A stretch of DNA of 64,000 nucleotides from Longitalea arenae. Lineage in GTDB: Bacteria; Bacteroidota; Bacteroidia; Chitinophagales; Chitinophagaceae. A program made the translations under genes and the position numbers. The notes beneath the pieces are model-generated. The model did no database searches, was not told where the DNA came from, and saw only the letters and a list, made by a program, of their open reading frames with translations. The stretch spans positions 186,001 through 250,000 of the forward strand of contig NZ_JAFFJX010000009.1 in the NCBI RefSeq assembly GCF_016924755.1, given 5' to 3'. Numbering within the stretch: the stretch's first letter is position 1; the number at the start of each line of letters is the position of its first letter. Positions 12,902 through 59,914 of the stretch are shown here, one piece after another.

Positions 12902-13052
12902 ATGGCACAGTTAAATACGAATAATTTTTTCCTGTTGATGCTGCGTCCACTTATTCCGGAGTAAGTGCGTCCAGAAATAACGGGTAAGGAGATGCCGAAA
13001 ACCTGAATAAAAGAGTAGGCAGAAAAATTAACCATTAGTAAAAGGAACAAGT

Positions 13053-37269: not shown

Positions 37270-37277
37270 TACCTTTG
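37270..37277 (+). promoter_or_regulatory. -7 box of the suf operon promoter
   Basis: TACCTTTG matches TAnnTTTG exactly and lies 42 bp before the sufB ATG at 37320, predicting a start near 37284. It is the only good promoter seen ahead of the seven-gene operon. The Rrf2-type regulator at the operon's 3' end would probably bind near here. Confidence 0.65.
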
Positions 37278-37319
37278 TGCTCCAAATTCGAAAACAGGTC
37301 AATTCAAAAGTATTTTGAT

Positions 37320-38765
37320 ATGAACAATGAGCTTAGTGCAATTGAAAAAACGGTTCTTAGTGATTACAAATATGGTTTTGTAACAGAAATAGAAGCGGAT
37401 GAAGCGCCTCCCGGATTGAATGAAGACACTATCCGTTTTATTTCGGCCAAAAAGAATGAACCGGAGTGGATGTTGGAATGGCGGTTAAAAGCTTATAACC
37501 ACTGGCTTAAGATGCAGGAACCTTCCTGGGCTAATATTAAGTATGATGCCATTAATTACCAGGATATTAAATATTATTCGGCTCCCAAACAGAAGAAAAA
37601 GGTAAACAGCCTCGACGAGATCGATCCCGAGCTGCGCAAAACATTTGAAAAGCTGGGCATTTCCCTCGATGAGCAAAAACGCCTTTCCGGCGTAGCCATT
37701 GATGCGGTTATCGACAGCGTATCTATTGGCACCACTTTCAAGGAGCAACTGGCTGAGCTGGGCATCATCTTCTGTTCCATCAGCGAAGCCATCCAGGAAC
37801 ATCCCGAGCTGGTAAAAAAATATATAGGATCTGTAGTACCTATTACCGATAACTATTTTTCGGCCCTGAATTCAGCCGTTTTCAGCGATGGTTCTTTCTG
37901 CTATATTCCCAAAGGCGTTCGTTGCCCGATGGAATTATCAACTTACTTCCGTATCAATGCAGAAGGTACAGGCCAGTTCGAGCGTACGCTGCTGATTGCC
38001 GACGAAGGCAGTTATGTGAGCTACCTGGAAGGATGTACAGCGCCCATTCGCGATGAAAACCAGCTGCATGCTGCGGTGGTTGAGCTGATCGCCATGGAAA
38101 ATGCCGAGATCAAATATTCAACTGTTCAAAACTGGTATCCCGGTGATAAGGACGGCGTAGGTGGTATTTACAATTTTGTGACCAAACGCGGTATTTGCCA
38201 GGGCGCCCATTCTAAAATATCCTGGACGCAGGTAGAAACCGGTTCATCTATTACCTGGAAATATCCCAGCGTGATCCTGAAAGGTGATCATTCAGTAGGT
38301 GAGTTTTATTCTGTAGCCGTGACCAATAATCACCAACAGGCCGATACCGGTACCAAAATGATGCACCTGGGCAAAAATACCCGCAGCCGCATCGTATCGA
38401 AAGGTATCTCTGCCGGCGTAAGTAACAACAGTTACCGCGGACTGGTGCATGTTGGTAAAAATGCAGCCAATGCCCGTAACTTTTCCCAGTGCGACTCTTT
38501 ATTGTTAGGCGATAAATGCGGCGCTCATACTTTCCCTTATATAGAAGTAAAGAACAATACAGCGGTAGTGGAACATGAAGCTACCACTTCTAAAATTGGT
38601 GAAGACCAGATCTTCTACTGCAACCAGCGGGGTATTGATACCGAAACTGCCGTTGCCCTCATCATTAATGGCTTTGCCAAGGAAGTGATGAACCAGTTAC
38701 CTATGGAGTTTGCGGTTGAAGCCCAGAAATTGCTTGCGATCAGCCTTGAAGGAAGCGTAGGTTAA
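37320..38765 (+). CDS. sufB: Fe-S cluster assembly scaffold protein SufB
   Basis: Scaffold on which the SUF system builds Fe-S clusters, as a SufBC2D complex in the cytoplasm. 481 residues. Family segments are [33 protein letters not shown] at the N-terminus, then [77 protein letters not shown] and [33 protein letters not shown] beta-helix sequences, with [15 protein letters not shown] near the C-terminus. The upstream frame is open to 37275, but ATG 37320 is the family start. First gene of the operon. Confidence 0.97.
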
Positions 38766-42945: not shown

Positions 42946-43449
42946 ATGAAAATAACTGCACAGGAAGAATACGGTTTGCGTATATTAATACGACTTGCAG
43001 CCTGCAAGGATACGAATGGCATGAGCATTCCGCAGTTAAGTGAAGCGGAAGGGCTTACGGGCACATATGTTGCCAAGTTGACGCGTATATTACGAATGAA
43101 AGGTTTTATAAACAGTACTCCGGGATATAAGGGCGGCTATGTTCTGGCCAAACCCGCGAAAGAAATTGTGATCAATGATGCCTTAAAGGCATTGGGCGGT
43201 CCCATGTTCAATAACACGTTTTGTGGATCGCATGCCGGCACCATGAAGTTATGTACCAACTCAGTGGATTGTTCGGCCCGTTCGTTGTGGCAGATGATCC
43301 AGTATACCCTGGATCAGTTACTTGATAAAGTGACCCTGCATGACCTTGTGAATTCAGAGAAAGAATCTACCAAAATATTATACCAGATGCTGCAGCCCGA
43401 CCCGGCATTAAAGCGCAGCATCATGAGCATTATTGCACCGGAAGAATAA
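42946..43449 (+). CDS. Rrf2-family Fe-S regulator (IscR-like, probable suf regulator)
   Basis: A 167-residue winged-helix transcription factor of the Rrf2 family. N-terminal HTH: KITAQEEYGLRILIRLAACKD, SIPQLSEAEGLTGTYVAKLTRILRMKGFINSTPGYKGGYVLAKP. A three-cysteine cluster region has Cys93, Cys103 and Cys109 (C-x9-C-x5-C, with LWQMI after it), matching the [2Fe-2S] ligand positions of IscR-type members, though the spacing differs from C-x5-C-x5-C. As the last gene of the suf operon it probably senses cluster status and represses or activates the operon (inference). A strong two-way terminator follows at 43472-43508. Confidence 0.93.
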   Translation: MKITAQEEYGLRILIRLAACKDTNGMSIPQLSEAEGLTGTYVAKLTRILRMKGFINSTPGYKGGYVLAKPAKEIVINDALKALGGPMFNNTFCGSHAGTMKLCTNSVDCSARSLWQMIQYTLDQLLDKVTLHDLVNSEKESTKILYQMLQPDPALKRSIMSIIAPEE

Positions 43450-43539: not shown

Positions 43540-45375
43540 TTAACCGCGGGGCCTGGGGCTGAAACGGCCGGGACCAAGCTCGCCTTTTTCTTTGGCCGGA
43601 CCATTCGGTTTTACAGGCTGGTTCTTTGATTCTGCTTCTTTCTTGTCTTGCTCTTCCTGCTCTTTCTGCTCTTTGCCGGCGCCCTCTTTTTCTTCCTTGT
43701 CTTTTTGTTCCTTAGCCAGGCGTTCTTTTTCGGCGCGTTCTTTATCTTCTTTTTCCTTTTGCTCTTTAGCGATGCGTTCTTTTTCTGCCCGCTCCCTGTC
43801 TTCTTTCTCTTTTAGCTCTTTGGCGATACGGTCTTTTTCTTCTTTCTCTTTATGCTCTTTCTCGGCGCGCTCTTTATCTTCTTTATCCTTTTGTTCTTTA
43901 GCGATGCGTTCTTTTTCTGCCCGCTCCCTGTCTTCTTTTTCTTTTTGTTCTTTGGCTATACGGTCTTTTTCTTCTTTCTCTTTATGCTCTTTTTCGGCGC
44001 GTTCTTTATCTTCTTTATCCTTTTGTTCTTTAGCGATGCGGTCTTTTTCTGCCCGCTCCCTGTCTTCTTTTTCTTTTTGTTCTTTGGCTATACGGTCTTT
44101 TTCTTCTTTCTCTTTATGCTCTTTCTCAGCCCGCTCTTTATCTTCCTTATCCTTTTGCTCTTTGGCGATGCGGTCTTTTTCTTCTTTGTCTTTCTTTTCT
44201 TTCTCAGCACGCTCTTTATCTTCTTTATCCTTTTGTTCTTTGGCTATACGGTCTTTTTCTTCTTTGTCTTTCTTTTCTTTTTCAGCGCGCTCTTTATCTT
44301 CCCTGTCTTTTTGTTCTTTGGCAATACGGTCTTTTTCCTCCTTGTCTTTCTTTTCTTTCTCAGCACGCTCTTTATCTTCTTTATCCTTTTGTTCTTTAGC
44401 GATGCGGTCTTTGTCTTCTTTGTCCTTCTTTTCTTTCTCGGCGCGCTCTTTATCTTCCTTGTCCTTTTGTTCTTTGGCGATGCGGTCTTTTTCCTCTTTG
44501 TCCTTCTTTTCTTTCTCAGCACGCTCTTTATCTTCTTTATCCTTTTGTTCTTTGGCTATACGGTCTTTTTCCTCTTTGTCCTTCTTTTCTTTCTCTGTGC
44601 GCTCTTTATCTTCCTTGTCCTTTTGTTCTTTGGCTATACGGTCTTTTTCCTCTTTGTCCTTCTTTTCTTTCTCCGCGCGCTCCTTATCTTCCCTGTCTTT
44701 TTGTTCTTTGGCTATACGGTCTTTTTCCTCTTTGTCCTTCTTTTCTTTTTCCACGCGCTCTTTATCTTCCTTGTCCTTTTGTTCTTTTGCTATACGGTCT
44801 TTTTCATTTTTCTCTTTCTGCTCTTTTTCCAAGCGCTCTTTTACTTCGCGGTCTTTGGGATTGAAGCGGCCGCCGGGACCAAAGCCACCTCCTTTGACGA
44901 CACTGTCTTTTTTACCGAAGATACCTCCCGGACCATAACCCTTTTTTTCTTTCTCGAGGCGTTCCCGCACCAGACGTTCTCTCTCTTCTCTGGCTAAACG
45001 CTCTCTTTCCAGCCGCTCCCTTTCCAAACGTTCTTTTTCCAAACGTTCCTTTTCCAGCCGCTCCCTTTCTAGACGTTCTCTTTCCAAACGTTCTCTTTCT
45101 TCACGCTCTTTAATACTAACAGGTCTATTAGGCCTTGTCGTGTTATAATTATTTTGTGTGTTGTTGTTAACGATCACTACCTGTTGTTGTTGAACAGGGG
45201 GTTGTTCTTTTACTACCACCACTTTCTCAATGACCCGGGGAGGTTCTTTAACAACAATGACTCTTGCTGGCGGTGGTGCGGTACTATAAACCGTTGTGTG
45301 GGTAGCGTGGCAGGCAGCTAGTAAAATTACTATTCCACTATAGGAACATGCCGATACGATTTGCTGGTAATTCAT
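43540..45375 (-). CDS. Repetitive charged (Lys/Glu-rich) surface or periplasmic lipoprotein
   Basis: About 611 residues from ATG 45375, which gives a lipoprotein signal MNYQQIVSACSYSGIVILLAACHA (lipid Cys22); the frame also continues to an ATG at 45426. After a Pro/Val/Gln-rich spacer and an Arg/Glu coiled-coil tract (RERLEKERLEKERL), two Gly-rich linkers (GYGPGGIFGKK and GFGPGGRFNPKD) lead into a long run of repeats, residues 193-576. It starts with nine 26-residue units (DRIAKEQKDKEDKERAEKEK type), then alternating 18- and 26-residue units. The tail is Pro/Gly-rich (GPGRFSPRPRG). It should be a long helical rod or coiled coil anchored by a lipid. No enzyme domain is present and the function is unknown. 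Confidence 0.75.
   Translation of the reverse strand: MNYQQIVSACSYSGIVILLAACHATHTTVYSTAPPPARVIVVKEPPRVIEKVVVVKEQPPVQQQQVVIVNNNTQNNYNTTRPNRPVSIKEREERERLERERLERERLEKERLEKERLERERLERERLAREERERLVRERLEKEKKGYGPGGIFGKKDSVVKGGGFGPGGRFNPKDREVKERLEKEQKEKNEKDRIAKEQKDKEDKERVEKEKKDKEEKDRIAKEQKDREDKERAEKEKKDKEEKDRIAKEQKDKEDKERTEKEKKDKEEKDRIAKEQKDKEDKERAEKEKKDKEEKDRIAKEQKDKEDKERAEKEKKDKEDKDRIAKEQKDKEDKERAEKEKKDKEEKDRIAKEQKDREDKERAEKEKKDKEEKDRIAKEQKDKEDKERAEKEKKDKEEKDRIAKEQKDKEDKERAEKEHKEKEEKDRIAKEQKEKEDRERAEKDRIAKEQKDKEDKERAEKEHKEKEEKDRIAKEQKEKEDRERAEKERIAKEQKDKEDKERAEKEHKEKEEKDRIAKELKEKEDRERAEKERIAKEQKEKEDKERAEKERLAKEQKDKEEKEGAGKEQKEQEEQDKKEAESKNQPVKPNGPAKEKGELGPGRFSPRPRG
43648..44799 (-). repeat. 78/54-bp tandem repeat array inside the lipoprotein gene
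   Basis: Reading on the minus strand: nine consecutive 78-bp (26-codon) units, then units of 54, 78, 54, 78, 54, 54 and 78 bp, sixteen in all. Unit consensus starts DRIAKEQK; units differ by single substitutions (EDK/EEK, A/T/V at one site, KKDK/HKEK). The alternation gives a higher-order period of 132 bp near the C-terminal end. Array length should vary between strains by recombination or slippage (inference). Confidence 0.9.
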
Positions 45376-45923
45376 GGGGTTACAGTTTTTAAGGTAAACT
45401 TCCTCTTGTGCATCAATAGGTTGCATAGCAGCAGGAGAAGCTTATCATAATAACGTTCATTATGCTTTTTTGGTATATAAAAAGATTATAATTCATTAAT
45501 AATGTGGATAATATGCTGCCAGGAACGGCGCTCTGTTGCCATGAAGGTTGGCGTTATTTATACACTTGTGTGCCGATGACCAATTAATCCCGGCCGTTTG
45601 ATTTACAACAATAATTCGCCTGAAATATCATATAACCGCTTTGCGGTATTGCTTATTAATTTTTTTTAATGTAGCTTAGGCACGAAAACCTAACAGTTCC
45701 GTATATCCCCGGTTTACTTTGCTTTAAAGTCTCATTGGTTTCCCAGCTCTGACAGTAAGTACATATCGTTTAAAAAGAACACGGTTAAGGATCCTGATGC
45801 CTTGCATCAGCACAAGGTATTTCATCTGTATCCCTCATACATTATGGTAATAGACGATCGATGTTTACAATATCGAAGGGAAATGCTTTGTATTATTTTC
45901 TTTAACCTTTAAAACATGCGCTT
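45376..45923. other. Intergenic region upstream of the C1A peptidase operon
   Basis: About 550 bases between divergent genes. No supported gene. A TACTTTG sequence near 45717 is a -7-like element with a one-base spacer instead of two, and another AT-rich candidate lies at about 45880-45900. The promoter of the peptidase operon cannot be fixed. Confidence 0.35.
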
Positions 45924-47036
45924 ATGAACAAGTCAGAAGAACTGAATGCGCTCCGAAGCACCCTGCTTCAAAATGACAGCAGCTGGAATGCCGGCACAAA
46001 CATGATTTTCGAACTTTCGACAGAAGAACAAATCAAACGGCTGGGTTATACGCCTGGTCCGGGTGAACCCAGCCTTAGCGAGCAGGAAGCCTTAGCACAG
46101 GCCAATTTGCTCAATTTCAATGTACGCAGAAGCGCTTATGGCAATGAGTTTGGTGCACCGGCTGCATTCGATTGGCGCAATAAGGGCGGACTGAACTTTG
46201 TAACTTCTGTAAAAGACCAGGGCAGTTGTGGTTCCTGTGTGGCATTTGGTACGATTGCATCAGTGGAAAGCAGGATCAAGATCCTGAAAAATAATCCGGC
46301 TTATGCCGTCGACCATTCCGAAGCTCATTTGTTCTATTGCCTGGCAAGGGCGGAAAGCCGGAATTGCAGTAATGGCTGGTGGCCCGAGCGAGCCCTTGAA
46401 AATTACAAAACCACCGGTGTTACCGATGAAGCCTGCTATCCATATGTAGCCGGTGATCAGAACTGCACAGGCCGTTGTGCCGATTGGCAGAACCGCGTAA
46501 CCAAAGTGCAGACCTATTCTAATAAAACAGATATTGCTTCCATCAAAGAGTGGTTATCGACCAATGGTCCAATGATCGCCTGCTTCTCGGTGTACTCCGA
46601 TTTCTTCGCCTATAATAATGGAATTTATCGCAAATCGGCCAACGCCCAATTCCGCGGCGGCCACTGCGTATGTTGTGTAGGGTACAACGATGCGCAACAG
46701 TTCTGGATCTGTAAGAACAGCTGGGGCGCTGGCTGGGGCGAAAGCGGTTATTTCCGTATTGGTTATGGCGAGTGTGGTATCGATAGCGCCATGCAGGGTG
46801 TTGATGCCATTGTTGATACAGCCTGGTTGAGTAATATCAGCGTAAAAGGTTTGTGGAACAATAAATCTGACCGCAACGCATATGCATACCTGGGTAACGA
46901 AGGCTGGAAAAGGATCACCAACAGTAATGATGTTAATTTCTACATGATGTTAAATGACCTGGCTACTGCTAAATCAGCCGGACGCAATGTAACAGCCCAT
47001 GTAGAGAACGGGATCATCACTGAGGTGTATGCTTAA
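45924..47036 (+). CDS. Papain-family (C1A) cysteine peptidase with C-terminal accessory domain
   Basis: A 370-residue protein with no signal peptide. Residues 1-78 are a possible prodomain (LSTEEQIKRLGYTPGPGEPSL). The catalytic domain has Gln99 (oxyanion hole) and Cys105 in VKDQGSCGSCVAFGTIASVESR, His247 in FRGGHCVCCVGYND and Asn265 in FWICKNSWGAGWGESGYFRIGYG; the Trp usual after the catalytic Cys is Val here. The C-terminal 65 residues (VKGLWNNKSDRNAYAYL...GWKRI...IITEVYA) form a separate domain also found alone in the next gene product. The peptidase, domain protein and I42 inhibitor genes are packed in one operon. Cytoplasmic location is suggested by the lack of a signal, but a non-classical export route is not excluded. 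Confidence 0.92.
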   Translation: MNKSEELNALRSTLLQNDSSWNAGTNMIFELSTEEQIKRLGYTPGPGEPSLSEQEALAQANLLNFNVRRSAYGNEFGAPAAFDWRNKGGLNFVTSVKDQGSCGSCVAFGTIASVESRIKILKNNPAYAVDHSEAHLFYCLARAESRNCSNGWWPERALENYKTTGVTDEACYPYVAGDQNCTGRCADWQNRVTKVQTYSNKTDIASIKEWLSTNGPMIACFSVYSDFFAYNNGIYRKSANAQFRGGHCVCCVGYNDAQQFWICKNSWGAGWGESGYFRIGYGECGIDSAMQGVDAIVDTAWLSNISVKGLWNNKSDRNAYAYLGNEGWKRITNSNDVNFYMMLNDLATAKSAGRNVTAHVENGIITEVYA

Positions 47037-47095
47037 TGCGATCTTATAGCTCAGTGTTCTTTAAAGGAACCATTATTCACAAAAAAAATTATAAC

Positions 47096-47524
47096 ATGTC
47101 CAAAAAGAATATACCAACTGATATGCCGTCTGCATCAGCCATGTCAGCAGCATCCACAGCAAGCGAAAGCTTTGCACCCGAAGCGCAGCCCCTCTTGCCT
47201 TCAAAAACGGAGAATGGTAAAACGGGTGGTTCGCTTTTAGCTACCCCATTTGACGCTATTAAGGAGTTGGAGAAGGGACAGGCCGAGGAAGGATTTGGCG
47301 CCGGCGTGTGGCATTCCAATAAGAAGGTAGTGGGTTTATGGACCATTGCCCAAACCCGCAATGCATGGGTGAATTTAACCGACCTGGGTTGGAAGAAGTT
47401 CTATAGCGGATCAGATTCTTCCATAGTGGCATTTAACATCATTGCCGGCAGTGCTTTGGAAAAGCAAACCCTGGTAAATGTGTTGATCGAGAACGACCAG
47501 ATCATTGAAATATATGCCTGGTAA
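47096..47524 (+). CDS. Stand-alone copy of the peptidase's C-terminal domain
   Basis: A 142-residue protein whose last 65-70 residues (VVGLWTIAQTRNAWVNLTDLGWKKF...NVLIENDQIIEIYAW) align with the C-terminus of the peptidase encoded 60 bp upstream (VKGLWNNKSDRNAYAYLGNEGWKRI...AHVENGIITEVYA). Shared positions are GLW, RNA, LGWKxx and ENxxIxExYA. Residues 1-75 are low-complexity (Ala/Ser/Pro, then Lys/Glu) and look unfolded. No signal peptide. ATG 47096 is chosen; an upstream in-frame start at 47036 would overlap the peptidase stop. Possible roles are scaffold, competitor or substrate of the peptidase (inference). Confidence 0.78.
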   Translation: MSKKNIPTDMPSASAMSAASTASESFAPEAQPLLPSKTENGKTGGSLLATPFDAIKELEKGQAEEGFGAGVWHSNKKVVGLWTIAQTRNAWVNLTDLGWKKFYSGSDSSIVAFNIIAGSALEKQTLVNVLIENDQIIEIYAW

Positions 47525-47564
47525 AATGGCTTGCTAATACCAATACTACTTTGACAGGCTTTAT

Positions 47565-47990
47565 ATGAAGGTGCAGTATATTTATAGAGACTGTATGCTG
47601 AAACCGGCTATATGGCCGGTCAAAGTAGTACTTATACTCTTTCTTTTAGTTAGTTCCTTAAATATGCATTATATGCAGGAGTATCAATTGAGTGAAGCTG
47701 ATAATGGAAAAAAATTACAGCTCAAAATGGATGACCATGTAGTGATAAAGCTCCCCGCCAGTCCGGGTACAGGCTATAACTGGGAAGTACAGCCCAACAG
47801 CCATTTTAGTGTATCACATCAATATAAGACCCAGGCCGATGCAGGTATAGGATCGGGCGGCGTGGATATTTTTAAGCTGAACCCCCAGGCGCGGGTGCAA
47901 AATGGTTCCATACGATTTTTATATCGCCGGGCCTGGGAAGATGCGTCAAAGGCAGGTAAACAATTTGGTTTCAGCTACCAGATCCAGTAG
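47565..47990 (+). CDS. Chagasin-like (I42 family) cysteine peptidase inhibitor, membrane-anchored or exported
   Basis: A 141-residue protein with an N-terminal hydrophobic segment (about 18-33), a signal peptide or anchor. The rest has the three loops that chagasin uses to block papain-type enzymes: SPGTGYNW (66-73, the NPTTGY loop), GIGSGGVDIF (94-103, the GxGG loop) and RRAWEDASKAGK (121-132, the RPW loop). Strands between them (HVVIKLPAS, GSIRFLY, FGFSYQI) fit the Ig-like fold. An ATG at 47595 is an alternative start. It lies 40 bp after the domain protein gene, in the same operon as the C1A peptidase, making that peptidase the obvious target. It may protect the cell if the enzyme acts outside. 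Confidence 0.85.
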   Translation: MKVQYIYRDCMLKPAIWPVKVVLILFLLVSSLNMHYMQEYQLSEADNGKKLQLKMDDHVVIKLPASPGTGYNWEVQPNSHFSVSHQYKTQADAGIGSGGVDIFKLNPQARVQNGSIRFLYRRAWEDASKAGKQFGFSYQIQ

Positions 47991-49963: not shown

Positions 49964-50560
49964 ATGAAATCTAGCCAGTTTACTGAGATTCAAATTATTG
50001 ACGGCTTGAAAAACAACGACAGCCGGGTATTCGATCACTTGTTTAACGAATACTATACCCAACTGCAATACTTCGCGGAGCGCCTGGTTAGTAACCGGGA
50101 AGAAGCGCAGGACATAGTCATTACCGTCTTTCGTAAATTCTGGAGCATTAAAGACAATTTTCAAACGATCAATAATATAAAAGCCTTTTTTTATATAACC
50201 GTGCGCAACCAGTGTTTGGATTTTTTGCGTTACAGGCAACGGTTGAATGAAGTAAAAAAGGAATATGAATCACACCTGCTCACCGCAGATGAATTAAAAC
50301 AGTCGGAGCATCTGATCATTGAAACCGACCTCATTAACAAGATCTATAAAGAGGTGCAGAAGCTTCCCAACCGCTGCCGTGAAATTTTCATTCTCACCTA
50401 CTTCAAGGGACTTAAAACAAAGGAAATAGCATCGGCGCTGCAGATCTCAGAAAGTGCAGTAACTACCCAAAGATCATTGGCCATCAAATACTTAAAGCAT
50501 GCTTTTTCTCAGGAAGGCTATGTATTCTTTTGCCTGGTACTGGCCGGTATGGACGTATAA
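49964..50560 (+). CDS. ECF sigma-70 factor 1 (locus B)
   Basis: A 198-residue FecI-like sigma factor. Region 2: DHLFNEYYTQLQYFAERLVSNREEAQDIVITVFRKFWSIKDN, with KAFFYITVRNQCLDFLRYRQR. Region 4: LPNRCREIFILTYFKGLKTKEIASALQISESAVTTQRSLAIKYLKHAF. It precedes fecR by 150 bp on the same strand and probably forms the classic sigma/anti-sigma pair with it. Its C-terminus (YVFFCLVLAGMDV) is short and hydrophobic but lacks the long tail seen in locus A. Confidence 0.93.
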   Translation: MKSSQFTEIQIIDGLKNNDSRVFDHLFNEYYTQLQYFAERLVSNREEAQDIVITVFRKFWSIKDNFQTINNIKAFFYITVRNQCLDFLRYRQRLNEVKKEYESHLLTADELKQSEHLIIETDLINKIYKEVQKLPNRCREIFILTYFKGLKTKEIASALQISESAVTTQRSLAIKYLKHAFSQEGYVFFCLVLAGMDV

Positions 50561-50710
50561 GGGATCTCAAAAAAAAATATTTTATATTTTTTTGGACAAA
50601 CTGCCGCTGCCATCCGTTTCTATTATATAACGGTTACCAAATTGTTATTTCTTTTCGGTTAAGGCAGGGCAAACAAACTTAATCAGATCACATTTTTAAA
50701 AGCGTTATGA

Positions 50711-51931
50711 ATGGCTGAAGAATCCTTTCATCTTTCCAATGAGTTGTTCGAAGTAGGAAACCTTATTTTAAAGTACAACCAGGGGGAGATCACCGAAGAA
50801 GAAAAAACAATACTGGATAATTGGATCAATGCCTCGGAAGGTAATCAACAGCTCTTTGCAACCTTAACGAACAATGACGCATTACAGGCAAAGCTGAACC
50901 AGCTTCATGAAATAGAAGGGACCAGGGAAGCAGCAAAGGATCGCGTAAAAGAAATGCTTTTCCCCGGCGCTTTAGTAACACCTATAAAACGCGCCGCTTA
51001 CAGCAGCTGGAAAACAGTGGCCGCTGCAGTTGTTGTTACAGCTGTTGTAGGTACCGGCGCCTGGTTTTTATTAAATAAAGAGAAACCGCAACAGATGGCA
51101 GTGGTTCAACCAACTGCGCATGCAAGCCAACAGGATATAGCGCCCGGGAGTTACAAAGCCCAGCTGATCCTGGATGATGGATCGGCCATTGTGCTGGATA
51201 GCGCCAATGCCGGTAAACTGGCGCAGCAGGGAAATATGCAGGTGGTGAGCAGGGATGGACAACTGGTTTATCAGCAGGGGACAGCATCAGAAAAAAAAGT
51301 TCTTTACAATACATTAAAGACAGCCCGGGGACAAATGTATCCGGTAAAGCTATCTGATGGTAGCGCTGTTTGGCTCAACTCTTCCTCTTCAATCCGTTTT
51401 CCTGTCGCATTTATTGAACAGGAAAGAAGAGTTGAAATTACTGGTGAAGCATATTTTGAAATTGCGCATAACGACCGCAAACCGTTTACGGTTAGGGTGA
51501 ACGGTGTGGATGTGCAGGTGGTAGGAACGGTGTTTAATATCAATTCATATGCCGATGAAAGCTCCCTGAGAACGACCTTGCTAAAAGGAGCGGTGAAAGT
51601 GAAGCAGGGTGATCAGCAGGTGTTGATAAAGCCGGGCGAGCAGGCGGAGGTAAAAGAGGAGAAGATAAGTGTGAAGAAAGCCGATGTTGAGCATGAAGTT
51701 GCCTGGAAACATGGCATCTTCGATTTCAAGAACGATAACCTGTCTACGATCATGCGGCAGATCTCGAGATGGTATGATATTGATGTGGTTTATGAAGGAA
51801 CCGTTCCTGATAAGAGAATAAGTGGCGGTATTTACAGAAATTCCAATTTGTCGGAAGTATTGAAGATCCTTGAAGGATTGAATGTAAAATTTGAAATCTC
51901 TGGTAAGAAGTTGGTTATAAAAGGAAAATAA
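50711..51931 (+). CDS. FecR-family anti-sigma factor (locus B)
   Basis: A 406-residue membrane anti-sigma factor, paralogous to the locus A protein. Cytoplasmic N-terminus with KYNQGEITEEEKTILDNWINASEGNQQLFATL; transmembrane helix at about 98-118 (VAAAVVVTAVVGTGAWFLL); periplasmic FecR domain with TARGQMYPVKLSDGSAVWLNSSSSIRFPVAF, EITGEAYFEIAH, VVGTVFNINSYADESSLRTTLLKGAVKV; C-terminal DUF4974-type part LSTIMRQISRWYDIDVVYEGT and SEVLKILEGLNVKFE. ATG 50711 is used; an out-of-frame ATG four bases upstream stops after three codons. It is followed after 37 bp by a second sigma gene. Confidence 0.95.
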   Translation: MAEESFHLSNELFEVGNLILKYNQGEITEEEKTILDNWINASEGNQQLFATLTNNDALQAKLNQLHEIEGTREAAKDRVKEMLFPGALVTPIKRAAYSSWKTVAAAVVVTAVVGTGAWFLLNKEKPQQMAVVQPTAHASQQDIAPGSYKAQLILDDGSAIVLDSANAGKLAQQGNMQVVSRDGQLVYQQGTASEKKVLYNTLKTARGQMYPVKLSDGSAVWLNSSSSIRFPVAFIEQERRVEITGEAYFEIAHNDRKPFTVRVNGVDVQVVGTVFNINSYADESSLRTTLLKGAVKVKQGDQQVLIKPGEQAEVKEEKISVKKADVEHEVAWKHGIFDFKNDNLSTIMRQISRWYDIDVVYEGTVPDKRISGGIYRNSNLSEVLKILEGLNVKFEISGKKLVIKGK

Positions 51932-59714: not shown

Positions 59715-59914
59715 AAAATAAAATTTTTGATGGTTTAAATGCCTACTCTTTTTGATAAGGTTTTTCGGCTTTCACCTTCTGCTACCCATAAGGGTAAATG
59801 TACTGTACATGTTGTTTTATAAACGGCACAACATGAGCCGTTACCGAACTTATTTGCAACTAAGTCAGTAGTTTGTACGTACAATATTTTAACAGGTTTA
59901 GTTTAATCTTTTTG
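59715..59914. promoter_or_regulatory. Gap between MauE (B) and peptide with hairpin and palindrome
   Basis: CATGTTGT (59808-59815) pairs with ACAACATG (59828-59835) as an 8-bp hairpin, and TTGTACGTACAA (59873-59884) is a perfect 12-bp palindrome. Both lie upstream of the peptide gene (minus strand) and could control its expression separately from mauE. Confidence 0.4.

Follow-up and report, generated by a model that had tools for sequence, protein, structure and literature searches.

The window analysed here, a stretch of 64,000 nucleotides of DNA from Longitalea arenae, carries three open reading frames on the forward strand at 45924-47990, which encode a C1A papain-family peptidase, a partner protein and an I42 inhibitor in this order (Table 1). 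The placement of the three genes on one strand, first proposed in a sequence-only reading of this DNA, is confirmed from the open reading frames. Of the gaps that the same reading gave as 60 and 40 bp, the one between partner and inhibitor is indeed 40 bp, while the one between peptidase and partner measures 59 bp. An alternative, longer partner frame would start at 47036, but the start conserved among relatives is the one at 47096, and the I42 frame at its full length occupies 47565-47990 (+). PF00112 and PF09394 each match once in the genome, both times in the trio genes. Among 14 named genomes used as controls for the family searches, PF09394 is found in one (Methanosarcina acetivorans) and PF00112 in three, M. 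acetivorans among them. Promoter-like sites number 7 against 5.6 expected (sd 2.5) and terminator-like sites 6 against 3.1 expected (sd 1.5); neither count enters the interpretation.

Table 1. Features of the peptidase, partner and inhibitor locus (window coordinates)
Feature	Position	Strand	Basis
C1A papain-family peptidase, 370 aa	45924-47036	+	PF00112 E 2.8e-48; hydropathy scan
N-terminal pro-region, residues 1-77	45924-46154	+	weak Propeptide_C1 match; pN/pS 0.12
Catalytic domain, residues 79-290	46158-46793	+	PF00112 match across residues 79-290
Gln99	46218-46220	+	invariance in 11 sequences
Cys105	46236-46238	+	invariance in 11 sequences
His247	46662-46664	+	invariance in 11 sequences
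Asn265	46716-46718	+	invariance in 11 sequences
Peptidase C-terminal domain, residues 298-370	46815-47033	+	alignment to partner domain, shuffle test, tree
Partner protein, 142 aa	47096-47524	+	ATG 47096; pLDDT profile; start common to relatives
Partner ordered domain, residues 70-142	47303-47521	+	modelled strands and helix; structural matches
Hydrophobic stretch before inhibitor core	47565-47672	+	pN/pS 0.68-0.71; frame open in 8/8 congeners
I42 chagasin-type inhibitor core, 105 aa	47673-47990	+	PF09394 E 1.7e-13; PDB sequence matches; alignment
Inhibitor loop SPGTGY	47760-47777	+	alignment to chagasin
Inhibitor loop GSGG	47850-47861	+	alignment to chagasin
Inhibitor loop RRAW	47925-47936	+	alignment to chagasin

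The peptidase matches PF00112 with 165.4 bits against a curated cut-off of 20.7. Gln99, Cys105, His247 and Asn265 are invariant across 11 aligned peptidases, the window's own among them, and this invariance together with the family match bears out the earlier call of a papain-family peptidase with these four residues. Judged by sequence, the solved structures closest to it belong to the dipeptidyl peptidase 1 and cathepsin L types, with dipeptidyl peptidase 1 as the best match in the PDB (E 2.3e-36). The pro-region of 77 residues is conserved (pN/pS 0.12) and gives a Propeptide_C1 match at residues 17-40 that is weaker than the cut-off (E 0.012); the peptidase is probably made as a zymogen. 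A pro-region common to all paired peptidases was also considered, but is unsupported beyond the trio type (best E 0.013). The structure model of the full peptidase is poor (pLDDT 51.8) and was left unused.

The partner had been described as repeating the C-terminal domain of the peptidase, and the alignment agrees: the two domains score 71 with BLOSUM62, against a mean of -19.6 (sd 11.2) and a highest score of 21 in 1000 shuffles (z 8.1), a result by which the domains are homologous at the sequence level. In the structure model of the partner, pLDDT lies below 50 at residues 11-47 and 56-67, and block means reach 86-96 from residue 71; the tail up to about residue 67 is probably disordered. 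The ordered domain is modelled as what we take to be an OB fold, presumably of the AB5 B-subunit type. OB folds are common, and with this domain neither a Foldseek search at E<=0.001 gave a match nor a profile search of PDB sequences up to E 10 an AB5 B subunit. In AB5 the catalytic chain is separate from the B chain and the chains carry signal peptides, whereas in the window type one copy of the B-type domain is fused to the protease; a reading of the partner N-terminus revealed no hydrophobic stretch. Five of seven records match the domain, each exactly twice, and it likewise occurs exactly twice in the L. arenae genome; it is thus not a general tag, and a role as a general secretion tag is rejected. 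In a tree of 22 domain copies, those of the peptidases and those of the partners form separate clades (support 98/97). The two copies therefore go back to a single duplication, after which the set was inherited together, although some long branches meet in this tree and leave its finer branching order unsure.

A partner with such a tail could itself be the substrate, with the flexible tail being cut by the domain-bound peptidase and the inhibitor timing the cut. This proposal agrees with a tail of low model confidence next to an ordered domain and with the fact that each of the 11 trio loci has the partner beside the peptidase, but the tail alignment, inspected by eye, contains no conserved cleavage motif, and paired peptidases that lack a partner are left unexplained. 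A maturation cassette of this kind is considered quite unlikely.

The third protein matches PF09394 with 51 bits (curated cut-off 27.2), and its frame aligns to solved chains of chagasin (E 3.1e-6) and of 'inhibitor of cysteine peptidase' (E 5.5e-8), in keeping with the chagasin-like protein with all three inhibitory loops that had been read from the sequence. The loops SPGTGY, GSGG and RRAW align to chagasin, the first and third being variants of the I42 consensus motifs, which are NPTTG, GxGG and RPW (PMC5014320, in excerpt). The sequence-only reading further set a peptidase devoid of a signal peptide against an inhibitor with a membrane or export segment. In line with the former, a 10-residue hydropathy scan reveals no hydrophobic start of the window peptidase. 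For the latter, the signs diverge as to whether the segment is translated at all: pN/pS amounts to 0.68-0.71 in the 20-24 codons before MQEYQ compared to 0.10-0.11 in the inhibitor core, and the hydrophobic stretch before the core evolves almost neutrally, yet its frame is open in all eight congeners. These ratios derive from five of six and seven of eight sequences, as one genome (L023/L130) was left out for a 9-nt gap in the leader, which is the sole gap in this stretch across the congeners; the stretch remains hydrophobic. In another congener (L131), no start codon lies more than 9 codons upstream of MQEYQ.

The trio is complete in all 11 loci that were found to have a full-length peptidase, the window counted. 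In each of these, one domain copy is fused to the peptidase and the partner follows directly, with the I42 gene coming next, on the same strand except in L026 and L027, where it faces the other two. The 11 loci comprise eight full-length members of nine relatives from the contig scan, the window, the genus genome L009 and a Deinococcus aetherius plasmid, with duplicates removed; L006, L007, L008 and L010 represent the same genomes as L020-L023, each of which was counted once, while L028 (27% identity) and a Streptomyces canus protein without the C-terminal domain were left out. The loci are spread over Chitinophagaceae, Actinomycetota and Deinococcota, thus three named phyla, and one unplaced MAG, and among named organisms the peptidase has its closest relatives in Longitalea luteola and Niastella species (Chitinophagaceae). 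Co-occurrence in related genomes, on which the earlier reading had let its case depend, is therefore found in every such locus, and supports its proposal that the inhibitor belongs with the neighbouring peptidase. The three-part form is nevertheless rare: the partner profile matches one of 298 genomes sampled from the order, which is the L. arenae genome itself, and two of 396 genomes of the Actinomycetota sample, namely the search centre and a weak match (G1056, E 6.3e-4) that was dropped since its frame, judged by eye, is not a gene of the trio type.

Two further readings of the trio were considered and found no support. Viral contigs contain seven C1A relatives at 24-33% identity, all without an I42 profile match and without the partner, and in 16 phage records the C1 matches are all partial and under 60% identity; a phage origin is not supported by these matches. 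Among these contigs, L072-L077 encode a C1A protein (31-33% identity) amid genes that look phage-structural by eye, with no I42 profile match. In PHROGs, the C1A protein matches a peptidase family (E 1.1e-14), and the search with partner and inhibitor returned nothing of note. Nor is membership in a known defence system supported by the PADLOC anti-phage models, of which no family matches any of the three trio proteins at E<=1.

Within the genus, the full-length peptidase is present in six and the inhibitor in eight of 10 genomes, the own genome included. Six genomes have both, two (G004 and G008) the inhibitor alone, two neither, and none the peptidase alone. In G008, what remains matches the peptidase only across its first 38 residues and the partner across 36, and G004 has no match to either protein; the neighbouring genes are the same. 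Lone inhibitors in the absence of lone peptidases are expected if prior loss of the inhibitor is harmful, although there are only two such cases, and each of the two genomes has other C1-like genes (30-32% identity) that the lone inhibitor could serve.

Pairs of C1 and I42 genes extend beyond the trio. I42 matches are found in 44 of 395 genomes of the Bacteroidota sample, 33 of which also have a C1 match, and the two lie within 2 kb of each other in 22 of the 44 genomes and at 23 of 49 I42 loci; in all 23 of these pairs the I42 gene is downstream of C1 and shares its strand. As a single family (f18) accounts for 19 of the 22 paired genomes and three further families for the rest, this pairing represents few lineages. 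In the Actinomycetota sample, I42 is present in 76 of 396 genomes and a C1 match in 17 of these 76, and the two are within 2 kb in only two of the 76, one being the search centre. The distance count covers all Bacteroidota I42 and C1 places and, for Actinomycetota, the I42 places of the 17 C1-bearing genomes; a lectin-type pair at L119, whose I42 gene was found with a custom profile only, is outside the 23 of 49. The earlier reading knew of no described bacterial module of these three parts; the three-part form is rare, but C1-I42 neighbours are more widespread than was supposed.

These counts also bear on the idea that, like Cip1 of Pseudomonas syringae, the inhibitor is directed at papain-like enzymes of foreign origin, its place beside a peptidase being incidental. 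Cip1 is an inhibitor of tomato proteases, and C1A is missing from most Pseudomonas genomes (PMC5014320, in excerpt); furthermore, 74 of the 76 Actinomycetota I42 genomes have no C1 within 2 kb, and two of the 10 genus genomes keep I42 without the trio peptidase. Set against this are the uniform downstream, same-strand position of I42 in the Bacteroidota pairs and the completeness of the trio across phyla, and an incidental neighbourhood is regarded as very unlikely.

The paired peptidases differ in the domains they carry. Most of those in f18 are short, about 270 residues, with neither a lectin nor an OB domain, and among the annotated C1A-I42 pairs that also occur on plasmids of Streptomyces canus and Priestia megaterium, the latter has no added domain. 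The L110 peptidase contains a region resembling CV39L lectin (E 5.1e-14) and that of L119 is similar by sequence; DUF346 scores above its cut-off in the L111 and L114 peptidases and under it in L112, which additionally has a weak fungal-lectin match. L110, L111, L112 and L119 are from f18 genomes, while L114 is from the Actinomycetota sample and its inhibitor falls slightly under the Pfam cut-off (26.3 versus 27.2 bits). On the S. canus plasmid, some 750 residues precede a C1A domain at the C-terminus of a 1023-aa protein, the I42 gene is next, and the second downstream gene resembles part of the N-terminal region (24% identity, E 4.7e-6, pairwise). The sequences suggest a common plan of protease, joined domain, free domain copy and inhibitor, which is clear in the trio and weaker in S. 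canus. Large uncharacterised proteins adjoin the C1A-I42 pair at L113:3874-6394 and L030:2763-7232; one region of the 675-aa protein in L113 recurs in the next gene (E 3.9e-27, pairwise), and the protein is weakly similar to the S. canus N-terminal region (E 8e-4, pairwise). In the Actinomycetota loci L080, L093, L095 and L102, I42 matches are doubled within one frame and are found in frames of about 1900 aa as well, and the genomes have no C1 match.

Where the proteins act was approached with the same hydropathy scan, a simple 10-residue window allowing GTG and TTG starts and not a signal-peptide predictor, applied to 37 loci, 21 of them from f18. Among the trio inhibitors, those of Paraflavitalea, L025, L026, L027 and D. 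aetherius lack a hydrophobic leader. A hydrophobic stretch precedes the inhibitor in all 17 f18 loci with a short peptidase (10-residue maxima 1.62-3.12), and in L110 and L119 only if a TTG start is used; L111 and L112 have none. The paired f18 peptidases are mostly without such a stretch, the exceptions being L045 (2.19) and L055 (1.95), in which the high values stem from an Ala-rich stretch ahead of the catalytic domain; the L109 peptidase has a Sec-like N-terminus (3.18). A plainly cytosolic inhibitor, initially considered, was withdrawn once the scan showed these leaders in paired f18 inhibitors. If a leaderless protease does go together with an inhibitor in the envelope, this would suit protection from an incoming protease; if the inhibitor is cytosolic, shielding the cytosol of the producer itself would be the fitting role.

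The trio might alternatively serve regulated proteolysis inside the cell, with the peptidase acting in the producer's cytosol during stress or cell death, I42 as its brake and the partner as a scaffold. The lack of a hydrophobic N-terminus on the peptidase and the leaderless trio inhibitors named above are in line with this, as is the D. aetherius plasmid (L029:6904-11035), on which a caspase-family gene comes after the trio and another such gene lies beyond it, with one hypothetical gene in between. However, caspase-family neighbours are found in this one locus only, the short-peptidase f18 inhibitors of the scan uniformly have a hydrophobic stretch, and neither the lectin-like repeats on other paired peptidases nor the patchy distribution is readily accommodated; intracellular proteolysis is held to be unlikely.

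An effector/immunity-like module, with a C1A effector, OB-fold domains and a dedicated I42 inhibitor, is the explanation we favour, at roughly even chances of being correct. The peptidase would lack a Sec signal and probably be produced as a zymogen; binding or assembly would be the role of the OB-fold domain at its C-terminus, and the partner would supply a free copy of the domain and may join the peptidase in a complex, such that the two OB proteins would assemble. Based on established I42-C1A biology, the I42 protein is expected to block the neighbouring peptidase, and as a dedicated inhibitor would shield the producer or its kin. By analogy with the action on nematodes of Marasmius oreades agglutinin (MOA), a fungal lectin-protease and the closest working parallel, the peptidase, once set free by lysis or a non-Sec route, would act on the cells of a bacterivore or a rival. 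The pairing, the patchy spread, the lectin-like repeats and the lone inhibitors argue for an effector with immunity. Counted against it are the pairing in only 2 of 76 Actinomycetota genomes, the few lineages, the absence of an added domain in the short f18 peptidases and the P. megaterium pair, and an OB domain of a common fold that lacks a Foldseek match at E<=0.001. In addition, three of the four Bacteroidota lectin-type loci with Pfam or PDB scans, as well as L119, are from f18, with L114 as the sole other and its inhibitor under the cut-off; the congeners with lone inhibitors have other C1-like genes, and the whole-peptidase model is poor.

To our knowledge, the staphopain-staphostatin system has no partner with a shared domain. 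It resembles the window pair in joining a bacterial cysteine protease to its own specific inhibitor, and differs in its families (C47 and I57) and in that its proteases are secreted (PMC7863939, in excerpt). The inhibitor itself is akin to the chagasin/ICP I42 proteins, such as Trypanosoma cruzi chagasin and Cip1, in PF09394, the three loops and the sequence matches, although the window I42 adjoins its likely target peptidase whereas Cip1 is secreted against plant proteases (PMC5014320, in excerpt). MOA, which belongs to the cytoplasmic class of fungal defence lectins (PMC8408931 and PMC13324453, in excerpt), shares with the window type a papain-like protease joined to a binding domain, and its nematotoxicity requires both glycan binding and protease activity (PMC8408931, in excerpt). 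In MOA a beta-trefoil lectin precedes a calcium-dependent protease, while in the window type the protease comes first, the OB fold is a putative glycan binder and an inhibitor gene is present. Polymorphic toxins with papain-like domains likewise have a gene that is likely protective beside the one with the protease domain, and the C-terminal C1A domain of S. canus is placed as in those systems; in contrast, no Pfam trafficking domain was found on the three window proteins. The 2012 survey of polymorphic toxins lists Tox-PL families, and the word 'chagasin' is absent from 300,000 of its 357,715 characters (PMC3482391, in that portion).

Bacterial chagasins have long had an open role, and the trio offers a natural pair across phyla with an obvious target enzyme, carried by named strains such as Longitalea luteola and Niastella caeni. 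That the target is endogenous is not a new idea: a 2009 paper views chagasins as the natural inhibitors of prokaryotic C1 proteases, crediting a 2002 paper with the suggestion that their targets are own or host proteases, and states that inhibition by a bacterial chagasin had by then been verified only on a eukaryotic and not on a bacterial cysteine protease (PMC2784779, in excerpt). In 2016, when Cip1 was added, the role of bacterial chagasins was stated to be not yet elucidated (PMC5014320, in excerpt). No description of a bacterial C1A-I42 gene pair was found in searches of the open-access PMC literature, subscription journals being outside this scope. The trio may show a repeated design of protease, joined domain and free copy, more weakly so in Streptomyces canus. 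It is conceivable, if doubtful, that bacteria have a class of leaderless papain-type proteases with an interchangeable binding domain (OB or lectin repeats) and chagasin as the immunity protein; equally tentatively, such proteases would sometimes be accompanied by a free domain copy and act on bacterivores or rivals. If true, this would explain bacterial chagasins as proteins that began, or were kept, as immunity proteins.

The surroundings of the trio contain several further features. A 628-aa protein consisting of KEQKDKEDKERAEKE-type repeats adjoins it at 43540-45426 (-), and the long plus-strand frames opposite look like repeat artefacts. In L020 this place is taken by a relative of 543 aa, and L124 and L131 have matches on the flank of the inhibitor. 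Further upstream lie a SufB/D-type protein (37275-38765, +) and an Rrf2-type regulator (42946-43449, +), and the genes between 38765 and 42946 look, from their size only, like the remainder of a SUF cluster. Downstream, 49964-51931 (+) encodes an ECF sigma factor and, after it, a FecR-type protein. Two matches to the DUF805b cis-regulatory RNA, each exceeding the gathering score, are located at 12985-13021 (+) and 59740-59778 (-).
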